From: Synergistota bacterium
GTDB lineage: Bacteria > Synergistota > GBS-1
Assembly (NCBI GenBank): GCA_025060595.1
Contig: JANXBX010000002.1
Span: 140,300 to 204,299, forward strand
DNA length: 64,000 nucleotides
Reading direction: 5' to 3'
In this document: piece by piece, positions 15,212 through 22,707 of the stretch
Layout: each line of letters starts with the position of its first letter
Numbering within the stretch: the first letter of the stretch is position 1
Position numbers and translations under genes: made by a program
The notes under the pieces: generated by a model
The model's input: the letters and a program-made list of their open reading frames with translations, nothing else
Database searches by the model: none
Told to the model about the DNA's origin: nothing

Positions 15212-15877
15212 TTGAACATATGGCTAAGGCATGAGAAGCTTGTTGAGATGGGAATCTTAAGAAGCGCCTCCTTACTCGTAGCTGGAGCAGGAGGTCTAGG
15301 ATCTACGGTTTTAGAGCTCCTTGTAAGGCTTGGGATCGGAAAGATATACATAGTAGATAACGGGATCGTAGATAAACCAGATCTAAATAGACAGATACTT
15401 TACGACAGTAAAGATCTGGGGAAGAAAAAGGTTCAAGCAGCTATAGAAAAGCTATCTGAAATATCTAAAGAAACGGTTTTAGATGGAATATTTAAAGACA
15501 TAAACAGCGATGATTTCACCCTACCTGAGGACATAATGGGAATAGTCGATTGCCTAGATAACTGGAAGAGCCGGTTTAAGCTTGAGAACTTAGCAAGAGA
15601 AAGGGAGCTATTTTTGGTCCATGGTGGCGTCAAAGAGATGTATGGGCAGATAACTACCCTAATGTATCCTGAAACCCCATCCTTAAGAGAGATATTCGGC
15701 GAAGTTAAAGAAGAAAGAAACCTACAGGTCTATCCACCGTTAGTTATAGCTTTAGCATCGCTTCAGGTATGGGAGACGGTCAACGCTCTCCTTGGAAGAC
15801 CTCGCCTGCTCGGTAAGCTTCTTGTGCTAGATCTATGGGAGCCCTCGTTAGAGATAGTCGAGATATGTAAGAGGTAA
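15212..15877 (+). CDS. HesA/MoeB/ThiF family E1-like adenylyltransferase
   Basis: About 221 residues. GAGGLGSTV near the N-terminus is the nucleotide-binding loop, DNGIVDKPDLNRQILYDSKDLGKKKV is the Asp/Asn/Arg-rich catalytic segment and GIVDCLDNW the conserved DxxDN-like site. It would adenylate the C-terminal glycine of the preceding MoaD/ThiS-like protein. The paired CxxC zinc motifs of full-length MoeB/ThiF are missing. TTG at 15212 lies five bases after GGAGGTGG; the in-frame GTG at 15203 is inside that SD. Its last 98 bp overlap the 3' end of aroKB on the other strand. Confidence 0.86.
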   Translation: MNIWLRHEKLVEMGILRSASLLVAGAGGLGSTVLELLVRLGIGKIYIVDNGIVDKPDLNRQILYDSKDLGKKKVQAAIEKLSEISKETVLDGIFKDINSDDFTLPEDIMGIVDCLDNWKSRFKLENLARERELFLVHGGVKEMYGQITTLMYPETPSLREIFGEVKEERNLQVYPPLVIALASLQVWETVNALLGRPRLLGKLLVLDLWEPSLEIVEICKR

Positions 15878-17369
15878 GCTCAGGAAGGCTTATCGGATAG
15901 ATGATAGATTCCCCTATATTCTTAACCAAGATGAAATTAACTTTGCCATTTTTAATCTTCTTATCCTGCACCAGCTTAGCATAGACCCTGTTTAAGTCTA
16001 AATCCTTTAGCTCAACCGGCATATCTATAGCCTTAAGGAGATTTAATACCCTATCTAATATCCCTCTTTCGGTAATACCTAAAAACTCCCCAAGCCTTAA
16101 GGCGAAGCTTTTACCTAAACTTACCGCCTCACCATGGCTCATATTATAAGCGCTTTCAATGGCGTGTCCCAGAGTATGCCCAAAGTTCAAGATCTGTCTT
16201 AAGGATCTATCGAATAAATCCCTTTCCGCTATCCTAAGCTTAAGCTCGACTGATGTTTTTATAAGCTTAAAAAGCGTCCTTAAGTCCCTCTTCTTAATTC
16301 TATCTATATTATCCTCTATGAATTCAAAGAGCTCCCTTGAAGCCACCAAGGCTATCTTTATAGCCTCTACCAATCCTTCGGAAAATCTCTTAGGGTCTTG
16401 AGAAAGGACGAAGGTTGGATCTATAAGGACAAGCTTAGGAACCTTAAAGGCCCCTATCACGTTTTTAATCTCCCCTAAGTTAATGGCGGTCTTGCCACCT
16501 ATAGAGGCATCTACTTGTCCAAGCAAGGTAGTGGGAACGCTTAGGAACTCACACCCTCGCTTAAAGGTAGCTGTAGCAAAACCAACCGCATCGGTTAATG
16601 CCCCTCCCCCTAAGGCTACCACAGTATCCTTCCTCTCTATCTCCCAATCTATAAAGGTCTTATAAAGCCTCTCAATAAAGCTTAAATCTTTGGCTTCCTC
16701 CCCATCGGGAGCTATAAGAAGCTTACCCCCCTCTTTAATGAAGGGCCTATATATCCTATAGACGCTACTAGTGGTTAATACCGGAAAGCAGCCTATCTCT
16801 TCCCAACAGATCCTCTTTACGTGAACATCATGAAGGGAAGAGTAGATTACATCCTCCTCAAATACCCCTTTAAGGTTAAAGACCATTAATGCACAAGCTT
16901 CCTCAGGGGAAAGGTTATCCCCTTCTATGGTAAAGTGAGCCATCTCATAAAGCTCCTTTCTCGCCACATACAAACTCTCCAAACGCTCCCTTAAGTTTCC
17001 TCTTAAAAGCGGCCTATCCTCCGCTTCCCTCCTTAGCCTTCTTTCAAGCTCATCTATCGAGACCTTTATATAGAAAGATACGCTATCCTCAAGAATTGCC
17101 TTTCTATTTTCAGGATCGAGTATCGCTCCTCCCCCTAAGGATACAACTCCTCCCTTTCTTATCGAACGAAGAACAACCCTTTTCTCTATCTCCCTAAAAG
17201 CTTTCTCCCCAAGCCTATCAAATATCTCGGGAACGGACATTCCGGTTTCTCTCTCTATCTCCTTATCCGTATCCGTAAACGATAACCCCAAAGCATCCGC
17301 CAAAAGCTTTCCTACGGTGCTCTTCCCAGAACCGGATAATCCCACTATCGTGATAGTTCTTTTCTCCAT
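15780..17369 (-). CDS. aroKB: Bifunctional shikimate kinase / 3-dehydroquinate synthase
   Basis: 529 residues. Residues 1-165 are a shikimate kinase: P-loop GLSGSGKST (10-18), DTDKEIE, RDxRxE-like FREIE and GGGAI. Residues about 170-505 are 3-dehydroquinate synthase: VALGGGALTDAVGFAT, SVPTTLLGQVDASIGGKTAIN, and metal ligands in NFGHTLGHAIE and SHGEAVSLG. It covers the second and fifth steps of the shikimate pathway. The same kinase-synthase fusion is known in Thermotoga. The last ~31 residues extend past the usual AroB end and lie antisense to the E1-like gene, suggesting a lost stop codon. It overlaps aroC by 25 bp and is last in the operon. Confidence 0.94.
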   Translation of the reverse strand: MEKRTITIVGLSGSGKSTVGKLLADALGLSFTDTDKEIERETGMSVPEIFDRLGEKAFREIEKRVVLRSIRKGGVVSLGGGAILDPENRKAILEDSVSFYIKVSIDELERRLRREAEDRPLLRGNLRERLESLYVARKELYEMAHFTIEGDNLSPEEACALMVFNLKGVFEEDVIYSSLHDVHVKRICWEEIGCFPVLTTSSVYRIYRPFIKEGGKLLIAPDGEEAKDLSFIERLYKTFIDWEIERKDTVVALGGGALTDAVGFATATFKRGCEFLSVPTTLLGQVDASIGGKTAINLGEIKNVIGAFKVPKLVLIDPTFVLSQDPKRFSEGLVEAIKIALVASRELFEFIEDNIDRIKKRDLRTLFKLIKTSVELKLRIAERDLFDRSLRQILNFGHTLGHAIESAYNMSHGEAVSLGKSFALRLGEFLGITERGILDRVLNLLKAIDMPVELKDLDLNRVYAKLVQDKKIKNGKVNFILVKNIGESIIYPISLPELTSYISRLSLTRAPIDLAQEAYRAGEVFQGER

Positions 17370-18460
17370 GACTCTACCCTCTCCTTCACCTCTGAAATCC
17401 TATCTCCCCCAAATTTCTCCAAAATAAAGTTAAGTATAGTAAAGGAAACCATGGCCTCACCTACAACTGAGGCAGCAGGAACGACCACCACATCTGATCT
17501 AATATAAGGAAGGGGACACTCCTTTAAGGTTTCAAGATCTATAGAGCTATCTAACGCATGGGAAGTAGGTATGGGCTTAAGGTAAGCGATCAAGACTATA
17601 TCTTCACCGTTCGAGACCCCTCCCTCTATTCCACCAGCACGGTTAGAGCTTCTTCTTATCACCCCATCTTTAACTACAAAGCGATCTTGAAACTCGCTAC
17701 CTGATTTCCTAGAGCCACATATAGCCTCTCCTATCTCAACAGCCTTAACGGACGGAATAGAAAGAAGGGAAAAACCCAATGCTGCATCAAGCCTTCTATC
17801 CCACTGAACATAGCTACCAAGGCCAGGCGGGACGTTCTTAGCTATAACTATAAAGCTACCTCCCAGGCTATCCCCTTTAGACTTAGCCTCCTCTATTTCC
17901 TTCAACATCAGCTCCGTAGTCTCCTCATCAGGACAGTAAATAGGCGAGCTATCTCTTTTAAGGATCAAATTCTCTATCTCTAGGTAACTTTTATCCAGGG
18001 AAACCCTTCCTATACTCCTTGTGAAAGCGAAAACCTCCACCTTAAGCTCCCTTAAGGCAAGGGAGCATATGGCTCCAAGAAGGGTCCTTATGGCCGTTTC
18101 CCTTGCGCTTGCTCTTTCCGCAACCACATTTAGATCTTTAAGCCCATACTTTATATGCCCCACATAATCGGCGTGCCCTGGCCTTGGAACGGTCCTAAAT
18201 CCTGGATTAGGATTATTCCCTCTATTTACAAGCTCAACTGATATAGGAGCTCCGGTCGTAAACCCCTCATGGATACCAGCAGATATAACAGGTTCATCAA
18301 GCTCCATCTCCATCCTTTTCCCCCTACCATATCCTCCCCTTCTCCTAGCCATAAAGGCCCTTAAGTAATCCATATCTATCCTCAAGCCCGCAGGCATACC
18401 ATCGAGTATCCCTGATATCTTACTTCCGTGAGACTCACCAGCGGTAATCATCCTGAGCAT
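17345..18460 (-). CDS. aroC: Chorismate synthase
   Basis: 371 residues beginning MLRMITAGESHGSKISGILDGM, the classic N-terminus. Other family blocks are RRGGYGRGKRM, HADYVGHIKYG, ERASARETAIRT and SNRAGGIEGGVSNGEDI. It converts EPSP to chorismate using reduced FMN. It sits between aroA (6-bp gap) and aroKB (25-bp overlap) in the aromatic operon and is near the usual length for the enzyme. Confidence 0.96.
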   Translation of the reverse strand: MLRMITAGESHGSKISGILDGMPAGLRIDMDYLRAFMARRRGGYGRGKRMEMELDEPVISAGIHEGFTTGAPISVELVNRGNNPNPGFRTVPRPGHADYVGHIKYGLKDLNVVAERASARETAIRTLLGAICSLALRELKVEVFAFTRSIGRVSLDKSYLEIENLILKRDSSPIYCPDEETTELMLKEIEEAKSKGDSLGGSFIVIAKNVPPGLGSYVQWDRRLDAALGFSLLSIPSVKAVEIGEAICGSRKSGSEFQDRFVVKDGVIRRSSNRAGGIEGGVSNGEDIVLIAYLKPIPTSHALDSSIDLETLKECPLPYIRSDVVVVPAASVVGEAMVSFTILNFILEKFGGDRISEVKERVESWRKELSR

Positions 18461-18466
18461 CTTAAA

Positions 18467-19741
18467 TCACCTCGTAAGGTCCTCTAAAATGTTGAAGAAG
18501 TTTGGGAAAGATATTTTAACCCAATTAGCCCCCATTATCTTTGATGGACCGTCGTCCTCAACACAAAGGGAGGCTATGCTTAATAGCATAGCTATCCTAT
18601 GGTCACCATGAGAGTTAAGCCTAGTAGAGGATCTTAAGCTTGCCTTACCTTTAACTATGAATCCATCCTCAAGCTCTTCGATGTTAACGCCCATCTTCCT
18701 GAGCTCAGAGACAACAGAGGCAATCCTATCGCTCTCCTTAACTCTAAGCTCCTGAGCTCCCCTTACAACCGTTTCCCCTTCCGCGAAAGCCCCAAGAAGA
18801 GCAACTAACGGAATTTCATCTATCATCTGAGGAGTCTCATCAGGAGAAACTACCGTTCCTAAAAGCTTAGATGTAGAAACTCTCACCTTCCCAATAGGTT
18901 CAAAATCATCCCTTTCAACCTTTACCTCCACGTTAGCCCTCATCCTCTCAAGTACCCTTAAAAGGCCTATCCTCGTAGGATTCAAATTAACATCCTCAAT
19001 TACTATATCCGCATCCCTGTGAATAACCCCAAGGGTTATGAAAAACGCAGCGGAGGAGAAATCCCCCGGAACCTCTATCTTTAAAGGATAAAGACTATCA
19101 ACAGGATCGATCTCTATAAAGCCATCCCTTTCCCTTAAATCGACCCCCATGCTCCTTAACATCCTTTCAGTGTGGTCCCTGCTCTTTCTCGGCTCCTTAT
19201 ACCGGCTTCTACCAGAGGCAAAAAGGGAGGCTAAGATAAATGCGCTTTTCACCTGAGCGCTTGGAATGGGGGCCTCATAATCTATACCTTTAAGTTCACC
19301 ACCATTCAACGTTATAGGAAGATAAGCTCCCCCTTCTCTTCCTAAAATGCTCACACCCATCTCTCTCAGGGGCTTAACCACTCTCATCATAGGTCTTCTG
19401 CTTAGGCTCTTATCCCCATAAAGGGTAAAAGTCCCTTTCCTTGAGGCCAAAAGCCCCATACCAATCCGAGCTGTAGTCCCGGAGTTACCACAATACAACG
19501 GCTTTGAAGGCTCTTTGAACGGACGAGGCTTGATCACAAGCCTTTTGAAATCACCTTCAAAATCAATACCGCAAGCCTTTAAAAGATTAAAAGTTCTTTT
19601 TACATCATCAGCCTCAAGGATGTTCCTTACTTCAGACTCACCTTTTGCCAAGGATGAAAAAAACAAAGCCCTGTGACTTATAGACTTATCGGGCGAGACC
19701 CTTACTACACCCCTAACTCTTTGAGCTCTTCCAAGTTCCAT
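18467..19741 (-). CDS. aroA: 3-phosphoshikimate 1-carboxyvinyltransferase (EPSP synthase)
   Basis: 424 residues. The conserved N-terminal [21 protein letters not shown], the [17 protein letters not shown] phosphoenolpyruvate-binding block, [13 protein letters not shown] and the C-terminal RVKESDRI and HGDHRIAM motifs are all present. It joins shikimate-3-phosphate and phosphoenolpyruvate. The GNSGTTAR loop has Thr rather than the Gly-Gly-Asn-Ala-Gly-Thr-Ala seen in E. coli, a common class variation. The start overlaps the DAHP synthase end by 37 bp, showing coupled expression. Confidence 0.95.
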
Positions 19742-20571
19742 TTTATTCCCCCCAATACTAAACGTTTTTTCTCTACCTCACAGAGATTAGATATTCCTGA
19801 TAAAACCAAGGCGAACTCCTCAAAGTTAAGGCTCTGATAACCATCGGATAGGGCCTCCTCCGGCTTAGGGTGAACCTCTATCATTATGGCATGAGCTCCG
19901 GCAGCAACAGCCGCCTTAGCCAATGGCGGAATAAGGTCTCTCCTTCCGGTTCCGTGACTTATATCCACACAGACTGGAAGATGAGCCATAGCCTTAACCA
20001 CAGGAACCGCCGAGAGATCTAAAGTATTTCTTGTGGCTCTTTCAAAGGTCCTTATACCCCTTTCGCATAAGATTATCCTTTCGTTTCCATGACAAGCGAT
20101 ATACTCAGCTGCAAGCAACCATTCCTCTATGGTAGCCATAAAACCTCTCTTAAGAAGAACAGGCTTATCCACCTTACCAAGAGCCTTAAGGAGAGCATAG
20201 TTAAACATGTTTCTAGTCCCCACTTGAAGAACATCAGCATACTCATATACAAGGTCTATCATGGTTGTATCCATAACCTCCGTAACTACCTTCATACCAT
20301 AGCTATCTGCAGCCTCCCTAAGCATCCTTAAGCCAAGCTCTTCAAGCCCTTGGAAGGAGTAAGGAGAGGTCCTAGGCTTGAAAGCCCCTCCTCTAAGCAA
20401 CCTAATACCCAAACCCGCAAGCGCTCTCGCAGTCTCGTTTATCTGCTCCTCAGACTCAACGGAACAAGGTCCAGCTATAATGTTTAAGAAGTTTCCTCCT
20501 ACCGGAATATCACCTATCCATATCAGAGTATCCTCCTTTCGAGCCTCCCTTGAAACAAGCCTTAACCCCAA
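19705..20571 (-). CDS. aroF: 3-deoxy-7-phosphoheptulonate (DAHP) synthase, type I-beta
   Basis: About 288 residues of the KdsA-like (I-beta) DAHP synthase class: [84 protein letters not shown] and [10 protein letters not shown]. It condenses phosphoenolpyruvate with erythrose-4-phosphate, the entry step to aromatic amino acids. It has neither the N-terminal ferredoxin-like feedback domain of the Thermotoga enzyme nor a fused chorismate mutase, so allosteric control may be absent. TTG at 20571 follows GGGAGGTGG; an in-frame GTG at 20580 is within that SD. A Tyr/Phe attenuator precedes it. Confidence 0.93.
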
Positions 20572-20595
20572 ATTAACCACCTCCCATGTGGGTAT

Positions 20596-20648
20596 AAAAA
20601 AAAGGGCCTCCGGGTAAATACCGAATAGGGGTATTTACCCGGAGGCCC
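20596..20648 (-). terminator. Attenuator terminator of the aromatic operon
   Basis: On the - strand, a perfect 19-bp stem GGGCCTCCGGGTAAATACC (20648-20630) with 20622-20604, 7-nt loop, followed by eight U residues. It stands 25 bp before the DAHP synthase start. Its 5' arm is shared with an alternative antiterminator pairing, 20654-20678 with 20623-20645 (18 bp with one G-U pair, a 2-nt bulge and then 5 bp). Confidence 0.9.
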
Positions 20649-20672
20649 TTAACCCTCCGCGGGTAAACACCC

Positions 20673-20732
20673 CTATTCAAAGAAGAAGTAATAATACCCG
20701 AAGTCCCTTATTCTATCTGCCCATATATTCAT
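20673..20732 (-). CDS. Tyr/Phe leader peptide controlling the aromatic operon
   Basis: A 19-codon frame on the - strand, MNIWADRIRDFGYYYFFFE, then TAG. Three consecutive Tyr codons (20696-20688) and three Phe codons (20687-20679) directly precede the antiterminator, and the stop codon lies inside the antiterminator 5' arm. In classical amino-acid attenuation a ribosome stalled at Tyr or Phe codons frees the antiterminator, whereas one reaching the stop codon covers it and the terminator forms. No SD is seen in the roughly 10-nt predicted 5' leader, so initiation would be nearly leaderless. Confidence 0.85.
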   Translation of the reverse strand: MNIWADRIRDFGYYYFFFE

Positions 20733-20748
20733 GGCTATTTAGTTATAA

Positions 20749-20776
20749 ATTATACCATCGAATCCGTATAATGCAA
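20749..20776 (-). promoter_or_regulatory. Promoter of the aromatic leader/operon
   Basis: On the - strand: TTGCAT (20776-20771), 16-bp spacer, TATAAT (20754-20749). The predicted transcript start, about 20742, is just before the leader peptide ATG at 20732. The same TTGCAT -35 hexamer is used by the tRNA-Arg promoter in this window. Confidence 0.75.
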
Positions 20777-20814: not shown

Positions 20815-22707
20815 ATGCCGCTCACAAAGATGTATCTTCTAAACTGTATAACCCATAAGAAATACTCAAGAAAGTTGCTCGCCAAGCTTTGCTCTATCGA
20901 GGCCATAGAACTATGCGATATTAAGAAGACCCCTCTCTACAAAAAGGGGTATTTAATAACAGCGAGAATAAACGAGAAAGAGGAAGAAGAACTAGCCTCG
21001 ATAAAGAGAAGGCTTTTAAGGATATTTGAAAACCTTGACGCCCAACCTCCTCCATTAAGCGAGGAACCTCCTAATTTCGACGGAGAAGTGCTTTCCCCTG
21101 AAGAATCAAAACTCCTCGAAGAAATCGAATCCCAGGCAAATCGCATCGGGGTAACCAGAAAGGTGATTCTTAAAAGCAAAGAAAGAATAAAAACATACCT
21201 CTTTAAAGTTCAAAACCTATTCGGGCTAGATGTGAAAATAGAGGAGCTTAAGAACCTGAAGTATCTTTACTACACCTTTGGGATAGTACCCTCGGTTCAA
21301 ATGCCTAGATTAACAAGAAGCCTAGAGAGCTTACCGCATGCCCTTATCCCAGTAAGCGGAGAGCACCTTTTCATATTTTGCTTAAGAAAGGATAAGGATA
21401 AGGTAGAAGACATATTAAAGAGCGTATTCTTTGAGAAGCTCGAGCTCCCCATTAAGTACCATGGAGAACCAGAGAGGGTTGCAAAGCTTATAGAGCTTGA
21501 AATGGAAAGGCTTAATATAGCCATGAGAAACTTAAACGCTAAGGCTAAAAGTTTCCTCCAGGAAAGGGAAGGTCTTTTAAACGCCCTATGGCAAAGAATC
21601 AATTGGAGATATTTATCCCTTCAAATTAAAAAGCTCTGCGGAAGCATGGGATCGCTAATAGCGCTATCAGGATGGGTACCTGAAGAGAGGGTAAAAGAGG
21701 TGGAAAGAGTCATAGATGAGGTATGTGAAAATAAGGTGGTATATGAGTGGGTAGATTCGAGCAAGTTGAGTGGAGAGCTCGTACCCCCAACGTTCTTTAA
21801 GAACAGTCCCTTACTTAAGCCCTTTGAGACCCTAGTTAGGCTATACGGTACTCCGGGACACAAAGATATAGATCCAACCCCATTTATCGCTTTAATCTAT
21901 CCCTTCTTCTTTGGCTTTATGTTCGGAGATGTCGGTCAGGGAATAGTCTTATATATATTAAGTAGCATAGCAAAGATCAGGTTTCCCTCCTTAGCTAGCG
22001 TAGCTCACCTTGCAAAGTGGTGTTCCCTATCCTCCATAGCCTTCGGAATACTCTATGGACATTTCTTCGGGTTCTCCGACATAATTAAACCTATAATACT
22101 CTCTCCGATGCACGATATTCACTCTATGATAGTAAGCTCTATAGCCATAGGAATAGCTTTAATAAGCCTAGGTTATATAATCTCTATAGTAGCTTTGTAT
22201 AAGGCTTACGGTTTCAGCAAAAAGCTCTTTTTAGATAAGCATGGAGTAGCAGGGCTATTGTTTTTCCTATCCTTTATTTCCATCTTCCTACTTTGGAGGA
22301 AGATAGGAGGCTTATCTATACTATTTCCTATACCCTTCGCCTTAATGATTTACCTAGGCTTAAGAAAGGAAAACCCTATGGAGGGGATTTTCTCCCCCAT
22401 TATAATGCTCATAGAAAGCTTCAGCAATGTTATATCTTTCGTAAGACTTGGAGCTTTTGCTTTAAATCACTCCCTTCTATTTATGTCCTTCTTCATGATG
22501 GGAGAGATGCTTAAGGACTCCTTCTTAGGAAGCCTTGGGAGTATAATTATGGTGGTTTTAGGTAACATCCTAATCATAGCTCTTGAAGGCCTAATTGTGG
22601 GAATTCAGGCTCTCAGACTTAACCTTTATGAGTTCTTCTCCAAGTTCTTTAAGGGCGAGGGTAAGGAGTTTAAACCCCTAAGCCCAAAGAATTTAGGTTT
22701 CGATTAG
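20815..22707 (+). CDS. ntpI: V-type ATP synthase/ATPase subunit I (a subunit)
   Basis: 630 residues. The N-terminal half (1-335) is cytosolic with helical hairpins (coiled-coil around 75-115 and 225-260). The C-terminal half has about seven membrane segments with the family signature PFIALIYPFFFGFMFGDVGQGIVLYI, a PMEGIFSPIIMLIESFSNVISFVRLGAFALNHSLL segment carrying the essential arginine, and IVGIQALRLNLYEFFSKFF at the end. It forms the ion half-channels of the Vo motor. First gene of the ATPase operon, with an ATG that has no SD and lies right behind a -10 box. Confidence 0.93.
   Translation: MPLTKMYLLNCITHKKYSRKLLAKLCSIEAIELCDIKKTPLYKKGYLITARINEKEEEELASIKRRLLRIFENLDAQPPPLSEEPPNFDGEVLSPEESKLLEEIESQANRIGVTRKVILKSKERIKTYLFKVQNLFGLDVKIEELKNLKYLYYTFGIVPSVQMPRLTRSLESLPHALIPVSGEHLFIFCLRKDKDKVEDILKSVFFEKLELPIKYHGEPERVAKLIELEMERLNIAMRNLNAKAKSFLQEREGLLNALWQRINWRYLSLQIKKLCGSMGSLIALSGWVPEERVKEVERVIDEVCENKVVYEWVDSSKLSGELVPPTFFKNSPLLKPFETLVRLYGTPGHKDIDPTPFIALIYPFFFGFMFGDVGQGIVLYILSSIAKIRFPSLASVAHLAKWCSLSSIAFGILYGHFFGFSDIIKPIILSPMHDIHSMIVSSIAIGIALISLGYIISIVALYKAYGFSKKLFLDKHGVAGLLFFLSFISIFLLWRKIGGLSILFPIPFALMIYLGLRKENPMEGIFSPIIMLIESFSNVISFVRLGAFALNHSLLFMSFFMMGEMLKDSFLGSLGSIIMVVLGNILIIALEGLIVGIQALRLNLYEFFSKFFKGEGKEFKPLSPKNLGFD

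Follow-up and report, generated by a model that had tools for sequence, protein, structure and literature searches.

Transcription attenuation by a ribosome that stalls in a short leader frame is an established mechanism, and leaders of this kind had been proposed earlier in front of DAHP-synthase genes. A leader of an E. coli DAHP-synthase gene was proposed by Camakaris in 1980, according to a later paper citing that work, and a C. glutamicum study describes a putative leader peptide with Phe-Tyr-Phe preceding the DAHP-synthase gene aroF (PMC4046766). In Acholeplasma, aroF is preceded by the uORFC-13-1 motif, which consists of a short frame with one or more Phe codons and a terminator stem (PMC8632094). 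Stav et al. (2019), whose five genomes include Thermovirga lienii, list two candidate Phe/Tyr uORFs near shikimate genes (PMC6429828). Attenuators lacking a Shine-Dalgarno (SD) sequence also have precedents. The S. meliloti trpL leader is translated without an SD sequence from a transcript beginning with the leader's ATG (PMC7298713). To judge from the title of Morbach 2000 as cited in PMC4046766, ilvBNC of C. glutamicum is a second example.

We analyzed a 64-kb stretch of Synergistota DNA (the window), in which a leader region precedes aroF. A first-pass annotation had described this region as a ribosome-stalling attenuator composed of a TTGCAT-16-TATAAT promoter, a 19-residue frame with a Tyr3-Phe3 run, a stop codon lying inside the 5' arm of an antiterminator, and a terminator with a perfect 19-bp stem and U8 that shares an antiterminator arm. 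The elements were located as listed below and compared with G003, which of the relatives whose upstream region is intact is the nearest; it belongs to another genus and has a DAHP synthase that is 78% identical.

20771..20776, minus strand: -35 element TTGCAT, identified in the sequence and retained in G003
20749..20754, minus strand: -10 element TATAAT, separated from the -35 element by a 16-nt spacer and retained in G003
20673..20732, minus strand: leader frame MNIWADRIRDFGYYYFFFE-stop, 19 codons, no SD sequence (ATG at 20732-20730, TAG at 20675-20673)
20690..20710 (about), minus strand: segment Z inside the leader frame, able to pair with the terminator 3' arm if no ribosome covers it (duplex energy compared with shuffles)
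20679..20696, minus strand: control codons 13-18, TAT TAT TAC TTC TTC TTT (Tyr3Phe3), identical in G003
20654..20678, minus strand: segment A, antiterminator 5' arm, which holds the leader stop codon; all pairs retained in G003
20623..20645, minus strand: segment B as antiterminator 3' arm, pairing with A
20630..20648, minus strand: segment B as terminator 5' arm, common to the antiterminator; G-to-A change in G003 compensated in A and C
20604..20622, minus strand: segment C, 3' arm of the perfect 19-bp terminator stem, pairing with B
20596..20603, minus strand: U8 tract of the intrinsic terminator (T8 in the DNA)

The -35 element matches the consensus at four of six positions, and the position of the putative promoter places the start of transcription near 20743. 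The upstream neighbor, a V-type ATPase gene at 20815 on the plus strand, is divergent. In addition to the control codons, the leader contains a Trp codon (codon 4) and a further Phe codon (codon 11). All 19 of the 19 terminator pairs (B:C) form, with a loop of 7 followed by U8 and a calculated energy of -38.4 kcal/mol, and this intrinsic terminator sits between the leader frame and aroF, the first gene. The antiterminator (A:B) has 23 pairs and a 2-nt bulge; the 22-pair form, with the outermost G-C left out, has an energy of -36.3 kcal/mol. Because B can pair with A or with C, never with both, the two structures are mutually exclusive. The fold of the whole aroF leader lies 6.2 sd below that of its own shuffles, none of which (0/200) was as good. 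The run of six aromatic codons is unique to this leader on both strands of the window. Such a run is by itself not rare genome-wide; six Tyr/Phe codons in any frame gave 27 matches, some of them overlapping, in the 1.86-Mb genome and 14 in the reversed control. Among the runs in short frames, three precede genes resembling those of the aromatic pathway or amino acid transport, with a terminator between frame and gene (aroF, aroE and a TRAP transporter).

The leader of G003, MNIVVSKVGACWYYYFFFE, has the promoter and all three arms. Both hexamers and their spacing are the same in the two genomes although the spacer sequence diverged. All nine of codons 4-12 differ and alter the residue, while codons 13-20 (YYYFFFE-stop) are identical at 24 of 24 nucleotides, as are codons 1-3. 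Every one of the 22 antiterminator pairs tested holds in the window genome and in G003, as do all terminator pairs. From the window to G003, the A:B pairs changed from G-U to A-U, C-G to U-A and A-U to G-U, and the B:C pairs from G-C to A-U and U-A to U-G, with one extra G-C pair at the terminator base in G003 only. The lone base change in B (G to A) is matched by compensating changes in A as well as in C, and every paired-base difference in A, B and C preserves both alternative helices. As aligned here, changes matched on both sides are what a switch with one shared arm requires. The window genome belongs to a family with few genomes, and the covariation rests on this single comparison because relative G002 is cut inside the terminator and the assembly of relative G001 lacks the gene. 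A sequence on contig 106 of G001 was considered as a DAHP-synthase fragment and set aside; its upstream region matches a KDO8P-synthase-like paralogue and holds no leader. The promoter, leader frame, stop codon position and shared-arm terminator described in the first-pass annotation were all borne out by the sequence. That annotation had also named loss of the Tyr/Phe codons and of the alternative pairing from relatives as evidence against its reading; the opposite was found, both being retained, and the comparison supports a ribosome-stalling attenuator.

From the sequence elements, their conservation and the calculated energies we infer a ribosome-mediated transcription attenuator that ties expression of aroF-aroA-aroC-aroKB to charged tRNA-Tyr and tRNA-Phe, with a probability of about 0.9; tRNA-Trp is possibly sensed as well via codon 4. 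RNA polymerase would start about 11 nt ahead of the leader ATG. Leader translation is an assumption of this scheme, because there is no SD sequence. A shortage of Tyr or Phe would stall the ribosome at codons 13-18 and leave segment A free to pair with B once B is made, so that no terminator forms and the operon is transcribed. When both amino acids are plentiful, the ribosome would reach the stop codon inside A and cover the outer half of this segment, in which case B would pair with C and transcription would end at the U tract.

An energy model with a fixed ribosome footprint, assumed to reach 12 nt past the A site's first base, was used to compare these states. For a ribosome at the Tyr codons, the A:B energy available before C is made was about -37 to -39 kcal/mol; it was -35 to -19 kcal/mol over the Phe codons and -14 kcal/mol at the stop codon, compared to -38.4 kcal/mol for the terminator. 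Hence, the modelled ribosome blocks the antiterminator at the stop codon and does not do so at the Tyr control codons. At equilibrium, the model still prefers the terminator in most stalled states, slightly so even at the Tyr codons, and the switch must therefore be decided by folding order, with A:B forming first. Formation of the antiterminator first is also held to decide other attenuators.

Additional aromatic leaders were found in the same genome. Leader MVKSVANLNVWFSFYYYFYFTWPAKLRERLAMLCKR followed by a terminator precedes aroE-aroD (contig C1 near 177363, minus strand; locus L122, reverse complement, about 1459-1569), and this leader type is kept in G001 and G003. Leader MIINAVSLKDKSYCVYYYYYYYLKPAKLRERLAALLLR, with seven consecutive Tyr codons and then a terminator, precedes a TRAP-transporter solute-binding gene (contig C5 near 91351, minus strand; L130, reverse complement, about 1500); it is kept in G002 and G003, with 5-7 consecutive Tyr codons across the three genomes. 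The names aroE, aroD and TRAP come from reading the translated products, with no family search. A Trp-Trp-Trp leader, MRNFYSCTVKKSKVNWWWQAFSLPRVYSCYK, and a terminator precede trpE (L170, 646-741) and are also present in G003 (L171). At all three sites the codon content of the leader matches the downstream gene, and the Tyr-only leader suggests that the TRAP transporter carries tyrosine. All examined relatives of the family have the aroE- or TRAP-type leader, one or both per genome, and the protector helix of these two types shows changes on both sides at 5 of 14 pairs among six sequences. In the window genome, purine-rich sites are present at the aroE, TRAP and trpE leaders and absent from the aroF leader. 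A leader-motif match on contig C77 of G002 (L165) proved not to be a leader, and distant matches to the aroE leader motif with 3 mismatches (G012, G020, G025, G037 and G046) were without a leader and were taken as chance. We also looked for a leader comparable to that of aroF before pheA and tyrA and found none.

The genes downstream of the aroF attenuator overlap or almost touch.

19705..20580, minus strand: aroF-type DAHP synthase (type I-beta barrel), lacking an N-terminal regulatory domain of the ferredoxin-like/ACT type (Pfam PF00793; 1rzm alignment)
18467..19741, minus strand: aroA, EPSP synthase (PF00275)
17345..18460, minus strand: aroC, chorismate synthase (PF01264)
15780..17369, minus strand: aroKB, shikimate kinase fused to 3-dehydroquinate synthase (PF01202, PF01761, PF24621)

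Residue 7 of the window DAHP synthase aligns to residue 70 of the T. maritima enzyme (1rzm), and there is no room for an N-terminal domain. Among other Synergistota DAHP synthases, residue 4 of L013 aligns to residue 6 of 1rzm, and L025 carries the Pfam domain DAHP_snth_FXD. In T. maritima DAHP synthase, the allosteric site for Tyr is made up by the ACT-type N-terminal domain (PMC5493349). As this domain is absent from the window enzyme, Tyr feedback inhibition is probably missing, which would leave the attenuator as the evident Tyr/Phe control. A search of the genome with the DAHP synthase found one close match and a second at 36% identity (E = 4e-26). Almost all genomes of the phylum have a counterpart of the second match at a similar level, and we regard it as the KDO8P-synthase paralogue; the query also matches KDO8P synthase in the PDB. 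Since pheA, tyrA and trpE homologues are present in the window genome, the bacterium probably makes all three aromatic amino acids.

Two explanations would dispense with leader translation. The hairpin might be a constitutive terminator or insulator beside which the aromatic frame is incidental, and it is indeed strong and perfect on its own and slightly favored by equilibrium energies when A is partly covered. However, the upstream gene is divergent, so no other transcript needs to be ended there, and an unrelieved terminator between the promoter and the first gene would silence the operon. Moreover, A covaries with B, and codons 13-20 stayed the same between genera while the remaining frame changed, leaving this explanation very improbable. 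Lower still do we rate a T-box or riboswitch, i.e. a tRNA- or metabolite-sensing RNA that controls the terminator without translation. Many Firmicutes do have their aromatic amino acid genes under T-box control, but an Rfam search of the window brought only one tRNA to threshold and no other RNA family. Furthermore, the leader is just about 150 nt long, a length taken up by the frame and the three arms, and outside the arms it is mainly the control codons that are conserved.

A third alternative accepts the attenuator and concerns its resting state only, i.e. whether an untranslated leader terminates (default-off) or reads through (default-on). In a default-off switch, a Z:A protector helix would leave B free for the terminator. 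This pairing is possible (-17 and -20 kcal/mol in the two genomes), and default-off behavior is predicted for the remaining attenuators of this family. Z:A was nevertheless no better than chance, as 49/500 and 38/500 shuffles were as good, and our thermodynamic test against shuffles in the two genomes gave no support for a classical trp-type protector (1:2) helix at aroF. Z:C, by comparison, beat 499 of 500 shuffles in the window genome and 500 of 500 in G003. The free fold of the untranslated aroF leader consists of A:B plus Z:C, with a terminator probability of 0.00 in both genomes, and forcing the terminator costs about 6 kcal/mol in the window genome and about 5 kcal/mol in G003. The corresponding probability was 0.94-1.00 for the untranslated leaders of aroE (three genomes), the TRAP transporter (three) and trpE (two). 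The default-off alternative is thus unlikely at aroF, and the aroF leader, with predicted readthrough if never translated, appears to be default-on, whereas the aroE, trpE and TRAP-transporter attenuators of its family appear to be default-off. This prediction is thermodynamic and takes no account of folding kinetics. Poor translation of the aroF leader is likewise predicted to raise expression, not to abolish it, and its weak start without an SD sequence would set the basal level. We tentatively propose the combined view, at somewhat less than even odds, that aroF has a default-on attenuator without a protector helix in which the efficiency of leader initiation sets basal shikimate flow, that the only recognized DAHP synthase of the lineage lost its Tyr-binding domain, with its control exerted through RNA, and that the aroE, trpE and Tyr-leader TRAP attenuators are default-off.

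The first-pass annotation had considered a Tyr/Phe leader in front of DAHP synthase unusual, an impression that did not survive a wider search, since such leaders are common. With a looser count that did not require a start codon, an aromatic-rich leader frame was present at 28 of the 29 Synergistota DAHP-synthase genes with upstream sequence. These frames are of three kinds: ...YYYFFFE; ...GQWR(Y/F)YYASG..., with a GLWLYYYATG variant; and ...FYYFYCFTRNKSD / YYFYFFGASRKV. A stricter test counted a gene only if its leader had a start codon, at least one stretch of eight residues with five aromatics, and a terminator hairpin after it. It identified a leader plus terminator at 11 of 30 Synergistota DAHP-synthase genes; in two of the 11 (L007 and L008), the frame first picked overlaps that of GQWRYYYASG but is read in a different phase. 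The strict test identified 16 of 80 genes from other phyla, which is no census because that set was chosen by similarity to the window DAHP synthase in an alignment-based contig scan. The controls gave 0 in 20 shuffles of each set, 0 of 298 other genes and 0 of 80 reverse strands. Genomes of Calditrichota, Planctomycetes, Ignavibacteria, the Desulfarculus type and others have short frames with aromatic runs, followed by terminators, in front of DAHP synthase (L043, L074, L082, L094, L111, L117 and others). These frames are probable attenuators, and a literature search for a published description of them found none. In most other Synergistota (L007-L021), the GQWRYYYASG codons form a near-palindrome, GGCCAGTGGCG-Tyr codons-CGCCAGTGGCC, which would place the Tyr codons in a hairpin loop. 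In Thermovirga lienii DSM 17291 (L006), DAHP synthase, prephenate dehydrogenase, EPSP synthase and the leader are located on the 31.9-kb plasmid CP003097. A DAHP-synthase locus of a genome from the phylum of the window (G019) proved identical to this plasmid, which assigns the window to Synergistota.

With these results, a mechanism described mostly for branch-specific operons of Proteobacteria gains a predicted Tyr/Phe attenuator with good comparative support, together with a phylum-wide group of leaders at the enzyme that opens the shikimate pathway. What is new is the predicted readthrough of the untranslated aroF leader, together with the absence of the N-terminal Tyr-binding domain, which would make the attenuator the evident Tyr/Phe sensor. 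One genome offers a clean comparison of attenuators with opposite predicted resting states. Our data suggest that a dependence on RNA control accompanied the loss of allosteric regulation in DAHP synthase, and the Tyr-only leader before the TRAP transporter predicts the substrate of that transporter.

The closest described systems share only part of this arrangement. The C. glutamicum aroF leader belongs to another phylum and has another sequence, with three aromatic residues instead of the six consecutive ones found here, and alternative RNA structures are not described in the part of that source available to us (PMC4046766). The uORFC-13-1 motif differs in being confined to Acholeplasma and environmental sequences, in having a ribosome binding site and in having no reported Tyr run. 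The uORFs of Stav et al. are similar in being aromatic and preceding shikimate genes, and T. lienii, whose DAHP-synthase leader is of the GQWRFYYASG type, belongs to the same phylum as the window; in the accessible portion of that paper, the source genome of the two uORFs is not stated, nor is there a description of a compact Tyr3Phe3 leader whose stop codon falls within the antiterminator (PMC6429828). The very short 5' UTR and the lack of an SD sequence, which the first-pass annotation had found odd, were confirmed by inspection of the window genome and G003, in which the predicted 5' UTR is about 11 nt. The oddness itself is diminished by the trpL and ilvBNC precedents, although the S. meliloti trpL transcript starts exactly at the ATG and its leader senses Trp. 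Like the pheA, pheST and trp leaders of enteric bacteria, the aroF leader combines a run of codons for the regulating amino acids with mutually exclusive antiterminator and terminator structures that share one arm. Unlike them, it has no significant protector helix, is predicted to read through when untranslated, lacks an SD sequence and would control the common shikimate pathway.
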